Origin: Methanococcoides methylutens
GTDB taxonomy: Archaea > Halobacteriota > Methanosarcinia > Methanosarcinales > Methanosarcinaceae
NCBI RefSeq assembly: GCF_000765475.1
Contig: NZ_JRHO01000014.1
Location: 451,687 to 515,686 of the forward strand
Length of the DNA stretch: 64,000 nucleotides
Direction of reading: 5' to 3'
This document shows positions 54,719-64,000 of the stretch, one piece after another. The position numbers and the translations under genes are program-made. How positions within the stretch are numbered: the first letter of the stretch is position 1; the number at the start of each line of letters is the position of its first letter. Under the pieces are notes generated by a model. It ran no database searches. It was not told the DNA's origin and saw only the letters and a list, made by a program, of their open reading frames with translations.

Positions 54719-55897
54719 TCACTCATTACCTACGAAAAATGATCTTGCGTTAGTGACCGAGTCCTCCACCATTTCTTCAATGTTCAGCTTTTCCTCTTCT
54801 CTGACCATCAGATCGAATGCAGCATTGATCTCCGGCCTGTCAGGAACTGCACCACATCCGGATGTCGGCATAATGGAAATATCATAGGTACCTATACGCC
54901 TTGCAAGGTCAATGATCTCAGTCTTATCAAGTCCGATCAAAGGATGATAAAGGGGTATACCAAGTCCATATATCTCAGCATGCATGTTAGCAGCTGTCTG
55001 TGAAGCGACCTGCCCAATGGAAGAGCCAGTAACAATACCATCAGCACCTTCTTTTTTCATGATTTTATATGCCATGCGATACATAGTACGTTTGCACAGA
55101 AGACAGGTATTCTTCTCATTGCAGTTGTTAATGAATGTGTCAAGATTCTTGCCATGCGGAACTTCATACATCTTGAGGTCATCTGCAGGCGACCACCTCT
55201 TTAATACTTCCACACATTTGATTGCCCTTTCAAGGGCACTATCTTCAGCAAATGGATTATTGTTGGCATAAACCGGTATTATTTTTACACCACGCCTCAT
55301 CATAAGCCAGGCTGCTACCGGAGAATCGATTCCACCAGACATTAGAACGATCATTTTGCCCTGAGTACCAAGAGGTAATCCACCCACACCTTTCACGATG
55401 TCAGTAAATACATATGCCTTGTTCTGCCTCATTTCAACGAAGATCTCACGATCAGGGTTGGAAAGATCCACTTTCGGAGTCCTTCCAAGAGATTCCAGAC
55501 GAGCCCAGACCGCATCTCCGCAAAGGCGTCCAATATCAGTGGATGAAAGACCCTCTTTACCCGAGCGGCGTGCACGGATGCCGAATGATTCACCATCTTT
55601 GATCAGATCAGCACCAATGTCGGCACACAACTTTGCAGCAGCATCAATATCAGCTTCGACCTTTACAGCAGAAGATGTTGATACTACTCCGAAAACATCC
55701 GCAGCTGCCTTTGCAGCACCGGGATCATCTGATTCGATAAAAATACGGCCCCATTCCCTGTAAACCCTGGAGAAAGATACATCCTCCTGCTTCAGCATGG
55801 CTTCAAGGTTGCGAACCAGGACCCTTTCATACAGATTCCTGACGCCCGGACTCTTGAGAGCCAATTCGCCATATCTTACAATAACCACGTCGTACAT
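54719..55897 (-). CDS. thiI: tRNA 4-thiouridine synthase ThiI (no rhodanese domain)
   Basis: ThiI makes 4-thiouridine at position 8 of tRNA, and in some organisms also serves thiamine synthesis. The 392-residue protein has an N-terminal ferredoxin-like/THUMP region (about 1-165), then the PP-loop motif SGGIDSPVAAWLMMRRG near residue 189. The C-terminal part has NEKNTCLLCKRTMYR and SGCGAVPDRPEI. The rhodanese domain of bacterial ThiI is absent, as is usual in methanogens, so the sulfur donor must come from another source. Identification is sound; the upstream DNA to 55920 is a short promoter region. Confidence 0.93.
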   Translation of the reverse strand: MYDVVIVRYGELALKSPGVRNLYERVLVRNLEAMLKQEDVSFSRVYREWGRIFIESDDPGAAKAAADVFGVVSTSSAVKVEADIDAAAKLCADIGADLIKDGESFGIRARRSGKEGLSSTDIGRLCGDAVWARLESLGRTPKVDLSNPDREIFVEMRQNKAYVFTDIVKGVGGLPLGTQGKMIVLMSGGIDSPVAAWLMMRRGVKIIPVYANNNPFAEDSALERAIKCVEVLKRWSPADDLKMYEVPHGKNLDTFINNCNEKNTCLLCKRTMYRMAYKIMKKEGADGIVTGSSIGQVASQTAANMHAEIYGLGIPLYHPLIGLDKTEIIDLARRIGTYDISIMPTSGCGAVPDRPEINAAFDLMVREEEKLNIEEMVEDSVTNARSFFVGNE

Positions 55898-56941: not shown

Positions 56942-57094
56942 TTGGAAATTACCTTAAAATGTCACTTGTGTGATATTGATCTGAAGATAATGAGAATTGG
57001 CGATAACGCCATGTACTATTGTCAGAAATGCGGAAGAACAACCTCCATTGATTCTGCCTGCACAATTTCCGATCAAACTGCTTACACAGCCTGA
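56942..57094 (+). CDS. Small zinc-ribbon protein B2, TTG start
   Basis: The 50-residue partner of B1, with CHLC and CQKC pairs and the end SDQTAYTA. The start TTG at 56942 follows GAGGTGAG. It shares 80% of bases with A2. Its final codons overlap the stop of the convergent Toprim gene by 13 bp. Confidence 0.72.
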   Translation: MEITLKCHLCDIDLKIMRIGDNAMYYCQKCGRTTSIDSACTISDQTAYTA

Positions 57095-57558
57095 TGTGAA
57101 CTGCCTGCGATCTTCCTCAATTTTGCAACATAGGAATAAAGGCTTTCCACATCTTTAATCTCTTTTTTTACCATTGAACTCAAGCGTTCACGCATGTTCA
57201 TATCTACATCAATACCAAAATACCGGAGGTCTTCCGATATCTTTGATGCTAGCAAGTCACCACGACGGTCCCAGTCAGTCAGGACCATAACCTTTTTACC
57301 AGTATCAACGATCCTGGCAGAAACTTCCGTCAGAGGCCGGTGAGTTGCAAGTTCAATATCCCCCTGAAAACCCAGTTTTCTCAAAGAGATAACATCTCTT
57401 TTTCCTTCAACAACAATAAGATCACCATTATTTGAATGATCCAGCATTTCTTCAAGAAGTTCCTCGATCAGTTCAAGTTTTCGTTGATATACAAAAAGAG
57501 GAGCTTTCAGATGGGGCCTGCCCACTGGCATATTTGCATTCTGTTCATGATCTGACAT
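57082..57558 (-). CDS. Small Toprim-domain protein (UPF0292-like)
   Basis: A 158-residue protein with a Toprim domain: LIVVEGKRDVISLRKLG (catalytic Glu) and VLTDWDRRGDLLASK (Asp-x-Asp). Archaeal proteins of this size are grouped as UPF0292. Toprim domains occur in topoisomerases, primases and RNase M5-type nucleases, so a nucleic-acid cleavage or joining role is possible. It is the only minus-strand gene between the duplicated units and the 57710 gene, and its 3' end overlaps the B2 gene. Confidence 0.85.
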   Translation of the reverse strand: MSDHEQNANMPVGRPHLKAPLFVYQRKLELIEELLEEMLDHSNNGDLIVVEGKRDVISLRKLGFQGDIELATHRPLTEVSARIVDTGKKVMVLTDWDRRGDLLASKISEDLRYFGIDVDMNMRERLSSMVKKEIKDVESLYSYVAKLRKIAGSSHQAV

Positions 57559-57998: not shown

Positions 57999-58289
57999 TT
58001 ATCTTTTAATAACGAATTCGGAGAGTTCATCATAAGTATCGATCCACATAACTTCGATGCCTTCAACATTGGAAAGTTCAGGACCGATGCGCAGATTATC
58101 CAATAGCTCTAATATAAGAGATCTTTTACCCTGAGCAATAACCCTTACACGACCATCTGGCAAATTCTGGGCATAGCCGACCAGACCTAATCCGGTAGCT
58201 ACTTTCTGAGTGAAGCTCCTGAAGTATACACCCTGAACCCTGCCGGAGACATACATCTCCGCACAGGCATTCTCATTATTTTCTGACAT
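57999..58289 (-). CDS. acyP: Acylphosphatase
   Basis: A 96-residue acylphosphatase, which hydrolyses acyl phosphates such as 1,3-bisphosphoglycerate and carbamoyl phosphate. The phosphate loop and catalytic residues are in MYVSGRVQGVYFRSF (Arg) and GYAQNLPDGRVRVIAQG (Asn). Length and layout are typical of the family. It is 21 bp from the thrS gene stop on the same strand, so it is probably co-transcribed with thrS. Confidence 0.93.
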   Translation of the reverse strand: MSENNENACAEMYVSGRVQGVYFRSFTQKVATGLGLVGYAQNLPDGRVRVIAQGKRSLILELLDNLRIGPELSNVEGIEVMWIDTYDELSEFVIKR

Positions 58290-58310: not shown

Positions 58311-60218
58311 TTAGAGGAACTTTGGCCTCATGGAAAGCAACTTTGCAAGAGGTAAACTGCGGTATGGCATATCGCCTATCTCGGACAGAACCCTTCCATT
58401 AAGCTCATCAGCAGTCATTTCGACTTTCTTTGGCTTCTTTGGTTCAGACTCAGCACGAATGGTCACATTGACCTTGCCGCTTTCCACTTCAGAATCACCA
58501 ATAACCGCCACATATGGAATCCATTCACGGCCTGCATCGCGTATCTTCTTACCCACGGTTTCCTCGCGGTCATCAATATCCACACGACACTGAAGAGCAT
58601 CGGCAACCTGATTGGCAAATTCCATATGCCTTTCAGCAATAGGGATGACACGGACCTGTGTCGGAGACACCCACACAGGTAAATTTGGAACTTTGCCAGC
58701 TTCTGCATCCATTGCGGCTTTTTCAAGGAGGGCATATATACACCTCTCAATTGCTCCGCTTGGAGAACAGTGAAGAACAACAGGACGTTGCGTCTCACCA
58801 TTGGAATCAATGTAATTTATATCATAGCGCTCTGCGTTCTCCACATCGATCTGTACAGTAGACAATGCACTTGCCTTTTCGATGGCATCCACGAAATTGA
58901 ACTCGAACTTAAGGACGAAATAGAAGAACCTTGTATCCCACATTTCCACAAGTACAGGCTTGTCAACCTTTCTTGCAAGTTCTGTGATAAAGTCCCTATT
59001 GCCTTCGTAAAAGTCACGTGTAAAGCGAATAGCAACTTCAAAGTCACTTACATCGATACCGATCCTGTTCAATGTATCAATACACATACTGTACTGCTCA
59101 CCGAACTGGGACACGGCACCTTCCATGTCCGGACACAATGTGTGCATATCCGGCATTGTGAAAGCACGCAGCCTTCGAAGACCCACAAGCTCACCACGCT
59201 GTTCCTTCCTGAAACTGTATCTGGTAAGCTCCATCATCTTAAGAGGAAGATGGCGGTAAGAAATGGTCATATCATGGTTCATCAGGAACTGACCGAAACA
59301 GGCAGCAAACCTGAGGAACATGTGACGTTTGTCAGACTCAATGGAATACTGACGTGCAGGGAACCTGTCAAGATACTTCTTCAAAGTCGGATGGTTCATG
59401 TCATACATCAATGGGGTTTCTACCTCCATTGCACCGATCTTTGCAGACTCATCGAGAACAAAATTCTCAATAAGTGACTTCATCAGCCTTCCCTTAGGAT
59501 AATAGCGCATATTACCGGAATCTGAACCAGGCTCATAATCTGCGATCTCAAGCCTGCGCATCAGCTCCACATGTGGTGGTGCCTTGTCAATGTTCCGGTT
59601 CTTGGTGATCTCATAATCCACGAACTTCCTGAGATTGTCGTAGCCGGTAAAATCAAACCCTTCTGCTTCATGAAGCTCACCATCAGGAGTGAGGATGCGC
59701 CAGTAGGACTTTGCAGTGCTTTCTGCTTTCAGTGCTTCAGAAACTACCTCATCCTTCTTCTCTTCAACTACAACTGCTTCACCACAGGTTGCAGACTCTT
59801 CCGGCCTGATAGTACGGGAAAGTTCGGAGAGCGGATGACCCTTACAGCTGATACTGAATGCTTTATACCAGCCAAATGGAGCTCTCATGACATTGTACTT
59901 GCCAGAAAGTTCTTTTTCGATGCTCTTGAGAACAGAGACCGCCACCTTCGGAGAGGAAAGGTCGGAGCTCAAGTGTGCATAAGGATAGAGCATCACATTT
60001 TCAGCTTTTACCTGCCCTGCAACCTTCTCTATTTCAGCAACAGCACGTTCAACTACCTGCTGCTGATCAGCCTCATCGAAGCTCTCAACGGCCATGAATG
60101 CCGTAAGTGCTTCCTCAAGACGTCCCTGCTTGAAGGACTCCTCGATCTTTTCAGCTACAGGAGTGCTCTTTTTTACCTCATATTCAATATAATCTGAATG
60201 GATAAGTAATAACTGCAT
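58311..60218 (-). CDS. thrS: Threonyl-tRNA synthetase, archaeal type
   Basis: A 635-residue ThrRS. The N-terminal about 140 residues ([17 protein letters not shown]...) are the archaeal editing domain related to D-aminoacyl-tRNA deacylase, which removes Ser from tRNA-Thr. The class II catalytic core has motif 2 [21 protein letters not shown], the zinc ligands Cys (AACFGQ), His (DMHTL) and His (VLHCSPSGA), and motif 3 [12 protein letters not shown]. The anticodon domain follows ([13 protein letters not shown]). Full length. Confidence 0.97.
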
Positions 60219-60329: not shown

Positions 60330-61418
60330 TTACTCTGCTTGCTCAACTTCAGCATTCCCTGCGTCTACCTGCTCAGCTTCAGCCTTATCCTGACACTCCA
60401 CATAAACGCGGTAGGCTGCCACCAGGGACCCCAGAAGTATCGGGGCTGCAAAGAAACCGGCAATTCCCCCGACAAATGCACCGCCGAGGAATGTCAACAT
60501 AATAAGGAACGGATGAATGTGCGATTTTATACCTGCAAGATATGGACGCAGGAACAACTCAGGTGGCACATAGATGACAATAGAACATATAACAAAGAAT
60601 ATCAGAGCACTCTCAAGTCCAAGGCTGAAGTAGCGTATGATAGAAAGAACGACCAGTACCATGTAACCGGCAAACATAGGTATCGCAGATGCAACGAAGA
60701 TGAGGGTTGCCAGCGCAAGAACATGTGACAGACCAAATGCATAGAACACAATAACAGAAAGCGTACTTACTGAAAGTGCAGCATAGGCATTGCCAATAAA
60801 CACGCCACTAAGGATCACATCCATGTGATGGACATATCTTTTGACAACATTCTGATCTCCATCCGGAACGATCCTGAGCATTGAGCGGTAGAGCGCATCG
60901 CCATCTGCAAGAAGGAAAAAGCACATGAAAATCGCGATCATAAGATTGATCATGAACATAGCGATCCCGCGTGCATAGGAAACGAATACAAGATTACCAA
61001 GAAGAGGAAGGACAGAGAGAGATGAATCCCATATAGTCTGCTGGATCTGTTCATAGTAGGCATGGGGGATGTTGAGATCGCGTATAAAATCGAACAGAGA
61101 ACCAAGTACAACAGTTTGGTTCTCAGATATCCAGACGATCTGGTTAGCGATCTCGACAATACCCATGCCAAGTATCAGCGTAATTGGTGCCACAATGAAC
61201 ATCGTGGCAATGAAAGCACCTAAATGACGTTTCCTCTTCAATGGCATATAGATAGGACGTGCTATATATGCGAAAACAAGTCCCAGCATTATACCATCAG
61301 CAAGAGGCAGCAAGATATAAACAAAAATGGAAAATAGTATAACTAAAGCTATTATTACAAAGATCTTCCATCTGGAACCGATCTGCCGGGACAGCTCATT
61401 AGATATGTTTGCGACCAT
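60330..61418 (-). CDS. AI-2E-family (TqsA/YhhQ-like) membrane permease
   Basis: A 362-residue protein with about eight membrane helices of the AI-2E transporter/PerM family (for example ALIFFVICSIVIYVPPELFLRPYL, GGAFVGGIAGFFAAPILLG). The family includes proteins linked to autoinducer export and to sodium/proton antiport, so the substrate is uncertain; the C-terminus is acidic and Glu-rich. The start ATG at 61418 is preferred to a GTG three codons upstream. It stands between thrS and the PUA/PP-loop protein, with no obvious operon link to either. Confidence 0.8.
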   Translation of the reverse strand: MVANISNELSRQIGSRWKIFVIIALVILFSIFVYILLPLADGIMLGLVFAYIARPIYMPLKRKRHLGAFIATMFIVAPITLILGMGIVEIANQIVWISENQTVVLGSLFDFIRDLNIPHAYYEQIQQTIWDSSLSVLPLLGNLVFVSYARGIAMFMINLMIAIFMCFFLLADGDALYRSMLRIVPDGDQNVVKRYVHHMDVILSGVFIGNAYAALSVSTLSVIVFYAFGLSHVLALATLIFVASAIPMFAGYMVLVVLSIIRYFSLGLESALIFFVICSIVIYVPPELFLRPYLAGIKSHIHPFLIMLTFLGGAFVGGIAGFFAAPILLGSLVAAYRVYVECQDKAEAEQVDAGNAEVEQAE

Positions 61419-61494
61419 CAAGAACACGCATTTAATTTTAACGAATAATAATATTATTTAGCACACAATATAACTGTAACACACTATTAATACT

Positions 61495-63549
61495 TCACTC
61501 AAAGGAAGTTCTTCTCGCGGACCTACCATCCATATTCAGTATGTCAGAGAGAAGCCTGTCCGAATATTTCAGGACAACACAGGCATCCGTACACCTTCCA
61601 CAACGTATGCAGTCATCACTTATGAACAGCTTTCCCTTTTCAGATCCAAGAGTAATGGCATTAACAGGACAGACCTTCAGGCATATGCCACATTCCGTGC
61701 ACTTGTTTATCCGCATCAGTTGTTCTGCAGTCCTTTTGAGATACTCCCTTGCATCATCCTCGGTCCTTGCGGTAACCTTGAGACTGCCGGAAGAGAAGAA
61801 CTTTATCGAATCACTGCCCGTCCTGACAAGCAACATGCCAAGATCTTCTGAGAGAACTGTGGTCCCCAGAATATTCAGCACTGCAGCAGCCTCGCTTAAA
61901 AGCACTCCACTAACAGCTGCTTCAACGGTGTAACCACCTTCCCTGCAAGGAGAAAACCCTGAAGTTAGAATGATAGCAAAATCCTCATCCTTCCGGACCT
62001 GTTCGGTCTCAATTCCGAGATCCTTAGCAAGATTTACCATCTTAGGCGGCAACTCCTTCCAGCGCCACAACCCATGCCTCACATATTCATCTGAAAGCCC
62101 TCTGGAACGTGCCCACTTCAGGAGATAGTCATTCCACCTGCCATATAGCGATGGATGGATCTCATGCAACCTTTCATATTCTGCAGACAATTCTGCAGGG
62201 CACAGGTAGCAGCCCACCCGCTCAAAACCCCTATCATAGAGAGGATTGTACTCCAGCCCGCGCCAGTGTATGTAAAGCCATACCTCAATAGCACGCCAGT
62301 CCCTTATCGGGAAGATGTTCAACTGGTCGGGAACAAAGGGATTCTTTTCACTGGCAGCAATATTTGCCCTGGAAAATGACTCATGCTTTCGCTTTCCATC
62401 GATGGTCAGGCACACACCACCACCTTCAGTACAACGGTCGATCACACGCCCTGCAGGAGCAAGCTTACATACCTTGCAGCACCAGCGGAAATCCTTTGCA
62501 GGAGGACCGAAGCTCTCAAGGTTATCCCAGAAAGCATTTTCTGCTTTTTCTTCGATAAGTTCAATACCCCGTTTTTCACAGTGGTCGTGCACAAAATCCA
62601 CAGTCTCCGGAAACTCGATCCCGGTGTTCAGGAAGAAAGCACTTACATCCCTGCTCTTAAGAGCACTCAATGTCAGGTCCAGGACCACAAGACTGTCCTT
62701 TCCCCCACTGAAAGATACATGCACAGGCAATTTCCGGTAATCTTTCTGGTTTGCAATGCCCTTGATGGTGTTCATTGCATTCTTCCCTAATTGCCTCAGG
62801 TGAGGGAGATTGGCCTTTATTGCATCATCCATTACGGAGATCTTTGGGCTTAACATCATAGTATTGGCCAGAATTTTTCTTACCCGAATAACCGGGCCTT
62901 CTGCCTGACCCATGTCCTCACTGTTGCACAAAGCAATACCCGAACCAACGAGATTACCAGACACCACGATCACAGGATCTCCTTTTTTGATGTCATTACT
63001 AAAGTGATCCAGCAGCTCTGCCTGCACTTTCTTGCCATTGAGATGGGACCTTGTCTTCTTCAGGACAACCGTTCTGCTGTCGGTCACCGAGTGGAGTAAC
63101 TGCGCACCAGTTGCAGATAGCTCGAAACGATATGCCATCACATGCATGTCATAGAACAACACACCGACCTTCAGCCCGTCGACGATCACCTCATCGGTCT
63201 TATCATCGCCGGGAATTTTGTTAAGAAGGACCAGATGCTCACCAATAGGATCGCAGCCATATTCGGACAAAAGCAGATCCCCAAGTACCCCACGTTCATA
63301 AGGCGAACAGAAACGTATGTCACCTGACCCTGAGAGTTTCACTTCAAGGATCTCGCCATCACAGGAACCACATTCTGGTTTGAGAAGAGGTACATTGCAT
63401 TCCTTGCACCAGAATATACGAGGATTCTCCTGTCCGGCAGGTTTCCTGAAACCTTTTTTCTTTTCACGAGAACCTTTGTTGCTTTTATTGCCTTTTTTAG
63501 AAGGAGATTTATGCATCTGTGAGTCGGCCTTTTTTAAGTGCATTGACAT
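61495..63549 (-). CDS. PUA/PP-loop (PAPS-reductase-like)/ferredoxin protein
   Basis: A 684-residue multi-domain protein. In order: a Lys/Ser-rich basic tail (1-40), a zinc ribbon (WCKEC...CGSC), a region of unknown fold, a PUA-like domain (about 170-235, VVLKKTRSHLNGKKVQAEL...GDPVIVVSGNLVGSG), a PAPS-reductase-type PP-loop domain (SFSGGKDSLVVLDLT near 281; WCCKVCKLAPAGRVI near 353) and two C-terminal 4Fe-4S motifs (CTECGICLKVCP, CIRCGRCTDAC). The PP-loop domain usually adenylates or reduces sulfur compounds, while the PUA domain and basic tail bind RNA. A role in RNA thiolation or sulfur transfer is therefore more likely than sulfate assimilation (inference). Methanogen-specific by my recollection. 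Confidence 0.8.
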   Translation of the reverse strand: MSMHLKKADSQMHKSPSKKGNKSNKGSREKKKGFRKPAGQENPRIFWCKECNVPLLKPECGSCDGEILEVKLSGSGDIRFCSPYERGVLGDLLLSEYGCDPIGEHLVLLNKIPGDDKTDEVIVDGLKVGVLFYDMHVMAYRFELSATGAQLLHSVTDSRTVVLKKTRSHLNGKKVQAELLDHFSNDIKKGDPVIVVSGNLVGSGIALCNSEDMGQAEGPVIRVRKILANTMMLSPKISVMDDAIKANLPHLRQLGKNAMNTIKGIANQKDYRKLPVHVSFSGGKDSLVVLDLTLSALKSRDVSAFFLNTGIEFPETVDFVHDHCEKRGIELIEEKAENAFWDNLESFGPPAKDFRWCCKVCKLAPAGRVIDRCTEGGGVCLTIDGKRKHESFSRANIAASEKNPFVPDQLNIFPIRDWRAIEVWLYIHWRGLEYNPLYDRGFERVGCYLCPAELSAEYERLHEIHPSLYGRWNDYLLKWARSRGLSDEYVRHGLWRWKELPPKMVNLAKDLGIETEQVRKDEDFAIILTSGFSPCREGGYTVEAAVSGVLLSEAAAVLNILGTTVLSEDLGMLLVRTGSDSIKFFSSGSLKVTARTEDDAREYLKRTAEQLMRINKCTECGICLKVCPVNAITLGSEKGKLFISDDCIRCGRCTDACVVLKYSDRLLSDILNMDGRSARRTSFE

Positions 63550-63693: not shown

Positions 63694-64000
63694 TTATTTT
63701 GAAAGGTAATCGTTGATGGTCTCTGCAGCCTGTTTGCCTGCACCCATCGCACTGATAACTGTAGCCGCACCGGTCACAGCATCCCCGCCTGCGCAGACCC
63801 CTTCAAGGGAGGTTACACCAGCCTCGTTCACAACAATGGTTCCCCATGGAGTGACCTCAAGACCTTTTGAACCATCAAAGATTATTGGATTCGGAGAAGT
63901 ACCGATCGCAATTATCACAATATCTGCATCGATCACGTGCTCGGAGCCATCCACTGCCACAGGTCGCCTGCGTCCAGATTCATCCGGTTCGCCAAGCTCC
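63694..64000 (-). CDS. gltA: Glutamate synthase small subunit-like/FAD-NAD(P) oxidoreductase (partial)
   Basis: The C-terminal part of an NAD(P)/FAD-dependent oxidoreductase of the glutamate synthase small-chain family. The reading frame runs into the window edge, so the N-terminus is missing. Visible are the second FAD contact GVCAGGDAVTGAATVISAMGAGKQAAETI, preceded by the strand IVIIAIGTSPNP. This ending is typical of homotetrameric GltA-type proteins. The true start lies outside the window. Confidence 0.85.
   Translation of the reverse strand, partial: ELGEPDESGRRRPVAVDGSEHVIDADIVIIAIGTSPNPIIFDGSKGLEVTPWGTIVVNEAGVTSLEGVCAGGDAVTGAATVISAMGAGKQAAETINDYLSK

Follow-up and report, generated by a model that had tools for sequence, protein, structure and literature searches.

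Archaeal relatives of the protein described here are labelled in databases and papers as PAPS reductases of sulfate assimilation. Yu et al. 2018 (PMC6286981) observed that they carry extra iron-sulfur and desulfurylase domains, encountered the same puzzle of the APS source that we meet below, and retained the reductase label. A fusion of this kind has also been noted as CysH-SufS (PMC11237513). On the biochemical side, APS reduction is reported for M. jannaschii MJ0973, with a low Vmax and a low kcat (PMC3448663), and PAPS reduction for a second homologue in an MSc thesis cited in PMC10322725. M. infernus possesses related 'APSR/PAPSR' genes together with activating enzymes, yet does not grow on sulfate (PMC10322725). 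The curated NCBIfam family NF010366, to which the protein belongs, has no name and no assigned function.

Other described enzymes share parts of this architecture. The PP-loop tRNA thiolases NcsA, TtuA, TtcA and ThiI combine an intact SGGxDS ATP loop with a set of Fe-S cysteines and an RNA-binding extension, DndC and SspD act on DNA in phosphorothioation with a partner cysteine desulfurase and without a PUA domain, and BrxP belongs to BREX phage defence. Among archaeal tRNA modifications, 2-thiocytidine at position 17 (s2C17) is described for M. maripaludis, P. furiosus and T. kodakarensis, and s2U33 for one M. maripaludis tRNA (PMC7668247). The parts of the archaeal tRNA surveys on which we draw name no enzyme for either of them (PMC7668247). 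The s2C of T. kodakarensis is independent of ubiquitin-like sulfur carriers (PMC11323500).

We analysed a stretch of 64,000 nucleotides from Methanococcoides methylutens (the window), for which a preliminary description had placed PUA, PP-loop and ferredoxin domains in one protein. This was confirmed by Pfam, which detects all three within one ORF, referred to as copy A (Table 1). The description had given no strand; the gene is encoded on the minus strand, and the plus strand of 61495-63549, read in the frame starting at 61495, contains many stops. The PUA match is marginal (residues 170-227, 25.9 bits at a cut-off of 24.8), and the PAPS_reduct (277-452, 150.7 bits) and 2x4Fe-4S (613-660) matches follow it. 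Copy A reaches 1042.2 bits with NF010366 (PRK13795.1-1) over residues 12-672, the curated cut-off being 745. A second full-length paralogue of 633 aa, copy B, is present in the same genome (G000:C9), and both copies are full-length members of NF010366/NF010368 (PRK13795 'hypothetical protein') above the curated cut-offs. The AlphaFold2 model of copy A has a pLDDT of 86.4. The Lys-rich tail mentioned in the preliminary description does exist and is found at the N-terminus, where the first 40 residues are predicted to be disordered. The description had missed the cysteine set of the PP-loop domain, the C2 domain preceding the PUA domain, the TBP-like domain (about 515-612), copy B and the members outside the methanogens.

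Table 1. Copy A, its parts and its neighbours in the window.
Feature	Position	Strand	Basis or remark
NfnL 3' end (NADPH:ferredoxin oxidoreductase-type subunit), upstream	63694..63999	-	full NfnS-NfnL pair in L057
Copy A: zinc ribbon / C2-PUA / PP-loop / TBP-like / ferredoxin, 684 aa	61495..63549	-	NF010366, 1042 bits vs 745
Lys-rich N-terminal tail, residues 1-41, predicted disordered	63427..63549	-	pLDDT about 28-40
Zinc ribbon, C48 C51 C60 C63	63352..63420	-	conserved Cys motif
C2-PUA tRNA-binding-type module, residues 77-238	62836..63321	-	Pfam PUA; hhalign to ArcS; PDB profile match to ArcTGT 1iq8/1j2b, E 1.1e-6; fold match 1j2b, Z 11.2
PP-loop (PAPS_reduct) domain, residues 248-500	62050..62808	-	Pfam, fold and profile matches
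Intact PP-loop SGGKDS, residues 281-286, invariant	62692..62709	-	alignment
C357-C358, first half of predicted [4Fe-4S] ligand set	62476..62481	-	invariant 36/36
C447xxC450, second half of predicted [4Fe-4S] ligand set	62200..62211	-	invariant 36/36
TBP-like domain containing the conserved C535, residues about 520-612	61714..61992	-	model, topology, alignment
2x[4Fe-4S] ferredoxin domain, residues 613-660	61570..61713	-	Pfam
AI-2E-type transporter, downstream neighbour	60330..61427	-	neighbourhood
Threonyl-tRNA synthetase (ThrRS)	58311..60218	-	neighbourhood
Acylphosphatase (AcP)	57999..58289	-	neighbourhood
ThiI, tRNA 4-thiouridine synthetase	54719..55897	-	joined to copy A by a tight co-directional gene run in L065, L066

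The N-terminal part of copy A was compared with known RNA-binding modules at the level of profile, structure and domain order. The Pfam PUA model matches 18 of 36 family members and scores strongly in the Asgard members (7.2e-18 for a Lokiarchaeote protein) and in copy B (5.7e-19). A profile of residues 41-240 aligned over 133 columns with the C2-PUA end of the ArcS encoded in the same genome (hhalign probability 96, E 3.9e-9) and likewise with a 193-aa C2-PUA protein (probability 96.4), while unrelated ORFs of the same loci, employed as a control, scored under 1. In the PDB, the profile of the N-terminal part matched PH0734 (1.5e-8) and residues 435-579 of ArcTGT, which comprise its C2 and PUA domains, followed by a Thermoplasma PUA protein, NSun6 and Cbf5. 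Folded alone, the module yielded a pLDDT of 96.4, and the predicted fold superimposes on the ArcTGT-tRNA complex 1j2b with an rmsd of 2.8 over 141 residues; nearly all of its first 50 structure matches are PUA proteins from RNA enzymes or RNPs. Judged by profile comparison and predicted fold, the module is homologous to the C2-PUA module of ArcS and ArcTGT, in which C2 precedes PUA in the same order, and this is the firmest new result of the analysis. The likeness is confined to this RNA-binding-type module; the catalytic domains are unrelated. The role in RNA that had been proposed for the protein is strengthened, as far as sequence and model indicate, to a tRNA-type module. Our literature search retrieved no paper that joins PUA with PAPS reductase.

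Conservation was read from an alignment of 36 diverse family members. The SGGKDS loop (281-286), C357, C358, K362, R387, E390, R394, C447 and C450 are invariant in all of them. The zinc ribbon, named in the preliminary description, is real as a motif, since C48, C51, C60 and C63 are kept in 34 to 36 members. Of the 36, 28 have C535, and the eight cysteines of the ferredoxin occur in 29 to 33. By their pattern, C357-C358 and C447xxC450 would make up a probable third [4Fe-4S] site within the PP-loop domain of copy A. This CC/CxxC set is of the APS-reductase type with four ligands, whereas the TtuA/NcsA type has three cysteines. The Thermoproteales members (L225-L244) keep SGGKDS and CC/CxxC, but their zinc ribbon and C535 are partly lost.

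The PP-loop domain is of the PAPS-reductase type. Its best fold matches are human FAD synthase (Z 21.6), CysD (19.9) and APS reductases (19.2 and lower), and NcsA and TtuA are also found among the matches. When the family profile was compared with the PDB, the best PP-loop sequence match was the ATP-using CysD (E 3.3e-14), slightly ahead of CysH. At the site where the family keeps SGGKDS, the loop of CysH is degenerate (SGAED), and CysH sits on a very long branch in the tree. With the tRNA thiolases copy A shares the intact ATP loop and a predicted RNA-binding extension; a set of Fe-S cysteines is predicted as well, with CC/CxxC ligands. It differs from them in the PAPS-reductase subtype of the PP-loop, in these ligands, in the C2-PUA module that takes the place of THUMP domains or Zn fingers, and in the ferredoxin or desulfurase fused to it within the family.

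In Methanosarcinaceae the genes are arranged in the order NfnS-NfnL-copy A-AI-2E-ThrRS-AcP-ThiI. In two loci (L065, L066) the run from NfnS to ThiI is co-directional and no gap exceeds 119 bp; in the 64-kb window the stretch before ThiI is looser, with gaps of 440 and 1184 bp. Some of the genes that separate copy A from ThiI have functions unrelated to RNA. A small TOPRIM protein (window 57082-57558) is encoded between the acylphosphatase and ThiI and is conserved in several Methanosarcinaceae.

Methanomicrobiales encode the PUA-PP-loop part in fusion with a SufS-type cysteine desulfurase (TIGR01979, E 9e-125), whose PLP lysine and catalytic cysteine are kept in 15 of 16 fusions. In one Methanomicrobiales fusion (L041:3843-6485) the desulfurase is degenerate, Asp replacing the catalytic Cys and Arg the PLP Lys. 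A stand-alone form of about 460 aa in the same order has neither ferredoxin nor desulfurase. Moreover, the sulfurtransferase gene fdhD is located near the family gene in eight loci, and the desulfurase fusions often stand beside FdhD. The transfer of sulfur, as originally suggested, is supported by the cysteine-desulfurase fusion together with the linkage to ThiI. A class-V aminotransferase next to the family gene in Vulcanisaeta-like genomes was considered as a second link to a desulfurase and rejected, as it lacks the catalytic Cys. The purH gene adjoins both copy B (G000:C9, L056) and the 460-aa Methanomicrobiales form (L045, L055, L078 and others), and this adjacency across two orders suggests an old synteny. 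At the place of the family gene, two Methanomethylophilaceae loci (L112, L123) contain longer ORFs of 1039 and 967 aa, possibly further fusions or overcalled starts.

Taken together, we consider an ATP-dependent tRNA sulfurtransferase the best reading of copy A and a reasonably probable one. The chief observation against it is the weak APS/PAPS reductase activity published for M. jannaschii relatives; the APS-reductase-like cysteine set, the 460-aa form, the degraded zinc ribbon of the Thermoproteales members and the non-RNA functions encoded between copy A and ThiI also count against it. This reading competes with the proposal of Yu et al. 2018 (PMC6286981) that such proteins are assimilatory APS or PAPS reductases whose fused ferredoxin stands in for thioredoxin. 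That proposal is consistent with the PAPS_reduct fold and the CC/CxxC set (a cluster is predicted in copy A), which copy A has in common with CysH, with the activities reported for MJ0973 and the second homologue, and with the conserved anion-pocket residues at the positions of K362, R387 and R394, although CysD has such residues too. However, the catalytic motif ECGxH was found in none of the 159 family members checked, whereas the CysH of M. methylutens itself ends in ECGLH. Copy A has an ATP-type loop and extra C2-PUA, TBP-like and ferredoxin domains (a desulfurase in other members), and it stays far below the curated CysH cut-offs (TIGR00434, 64.2 against 165.1; NF002537, 75.5 against 154; TIGR02057, 48.3 against 254.2). 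According to the preliminary description, the presence of sulfate assimilation genes was to be checked; another contig of the genome carries them as a canonical operon encoding sulfite reductase, CysH, CysD and CysN. In a survey of 295 Halobacteriota genomes, CysD exceeded the cut-off in 17 of the 42 Methanosarcinaceae carriers, one had a CysD fragment, four had Sat and 20 had neither; among the 54 Methanomicrobiales carriers, CysD was found in one, Sat in none and neither in 53. ATP sulfurylase was therefore not detected in 73 of 96 carriers of these two groups, leaving them without a recognised APS source, while it is present in M. methylutens next to the canonical CysH. The failure of M. 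infernus to use sulfate likewise speaks against a reductase, which, moreover, would have no role for the C2-PUA module, and we regard this function as unlikely. The warning that the PAPS-reductase label misleads is borne out by the separate CysH operon, by the nucleophile lost in the family and by the persistence of the family where ATP sulfurylase was not found.

The sulfur might also enter RNA elsewhere than at a tRNA base, either in rRNA or as a backbone phosphorothioate comparable to the action of DndC and BrxP on DNA. Residues 242-659 of copy A, comprising PP-loop, linker/TBP-like part and ferredoxin, match positions 101-508 of the PADLOC BrxP profile (PDLC02510) with an E of 9.5e-53, whereas DndC and SspD match the PP-loop domain far more weakly, at about 1e-13. 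The core including the ferredoxin is thus common to copy A and the defence protein, and the N-terminal module sets the family apart: the targeting part of BrxP differs from the zinc ribbon and C2-PUA of copy A. The fold matches Nip7 and Cbf5 are PUA proteins that act on rRNA as well. In contrast, among enzymes that carry this C2-PUA pair, those closest to the module of copy A are ArcTGT and ArcS, which act on tRNA, and the operon contains ThrRS and ThiI, which makes rRNA or the backbone an improbable target. Inspection by eye revealed no BREX genes near family members; the neighbours that were read are housekeeping genes. Alternatively, copy A could be an RNA-binding ATP-PPase in a ferredoxin-dependent RNA modification other than sulfuration, or could deliver sulfur to ThiI, SepCysS or FdhD. 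Lysidine and queuosine precursors are likewise products of PP-loop enzymes, FdhD and ThiI are encoded nearby and SepCysS is encoded in the genome, but the cysteine-desulfurase fusion argues for sulfur, and we assign these functions a low probability. The supply of SepCysS is ruled out as a general role, given how widely the family occurs in Thermoproteota, which are not known to use SepCysS. The insertion of sulfur into tRNA remains the likelier function on account of the archaeosine-type module, the loss of the catalytic cysteine and the retention of the family in genomes without a recognised APS/PAPS supply.

For the tRNA sulfurtransferase, we infer ATP use, cluster binding, the tRNA substrate, the sulfur product and the following order of steps. 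The tRNA would be held by the zinc ribbon and the C2-PUA module, and the base would be activated with ATP by the PP-loop domain. Sulfur would come as a cysteine-desulfurase persulfide or as sulfide; the Fe-S site in the PP-loop domain would handle it, possibly with C535 as a relay, and electrons from the C-terminal ferredoxin, fed by NfnSL, would release it as sulfide. As a tentative candidate of low probability for the product, by analogy, we name the orphan s2C17, because ArcTGT and ArcS, which have the same C2-PUA module, act on G15 of the same loop, two nucleotides away. Besides NcsA and ThiI, no tRNA thiolase was recognised in the M. methylutens genome. More speculatively than the sulfurtransferase itself, the family might be the missing enzyme of an orphan archaeal thio-modification, most temptingly of s2C17 in the D-loop, and could form a class with BrxP as its RNA member, the common PP-loop/ferredoxin core being directed to RNA by C2-PUA and to DNA by the different N-terminus of BrxP.

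If this holds true, the family provides a candidate gene for the orphan archaeal tRNA sulfur modifications (s2C17, s2U33), a question testable in genetically tractable methanogens, as well as a lead on the action of BrxP on DNA. Papers count these proteins as evidence of sulfate assimilation in methanogens and ANME, a conclusion that would be weakened if they are tRNA thiolases. What is new beside the known family NF010366 is the evidence for a tRNA module and for a sulfur donor.

Both copies occur in Methanosarcinaceae and Methanocellales. Methanomassiliicoccales genomes searched as a whole contain two members, the Asgard genomes tested contain one B-like copy, and 54 of 151 Thermoproteota genomes match, many over the full length. 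In the Halobacteriota survey, no clear member was detected in Haloarchaea and most Methanothrix. The family is an old archaeal one and not an oddity of methanogens; the term 'methanogen-type' used in the preliminary description was too narrow given the Asgard and Thermoproteota members, and Yu et al. 2018 (PMC6286981) had already described the fusion to iron-sulfur domains. With these two amendments the interpretation is partly supported: the misleading label, the involvement of RNA and sulfur transfer find support, and testing has left its core stronger. A 357-aa protein of another Halobacteriota family (L095:8018-9091) combines PAPS_reduct and ferredoxin without PUA and is very divergent.

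The domain around C535 is called TBP-like for its topology and because a stand-alone homologue scores above the cut-off of Pfam TBP. An identity with TBP was rejected, since Pfam TBP does not match copy A and direct hhalign to TBP is weak (probability 6). A stand-alone protein of 95 aa, homologous to this C-terminal domain of copies A and B, is encoded directly after IscS and IscU in the same genome (hhalign probability 94, E 2e-8), where these three genes in a row (L181, G000:C10:175557-177734) lie upstream of formylmethanofuran dehydrogenase genes and FdhD. The TBP-like Cys domain, apparently a small and undescribed domain family, also resides in larger proteins with a CxxCGExxC Fe-S motif (L201, L206, L204), the one in Methanothrix together with an HTH. 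In several Halobacteriota (L187-L200), stand-alone TBP-like domains adjoin FEN1 or UDP-glucose dehydrogenase genes.
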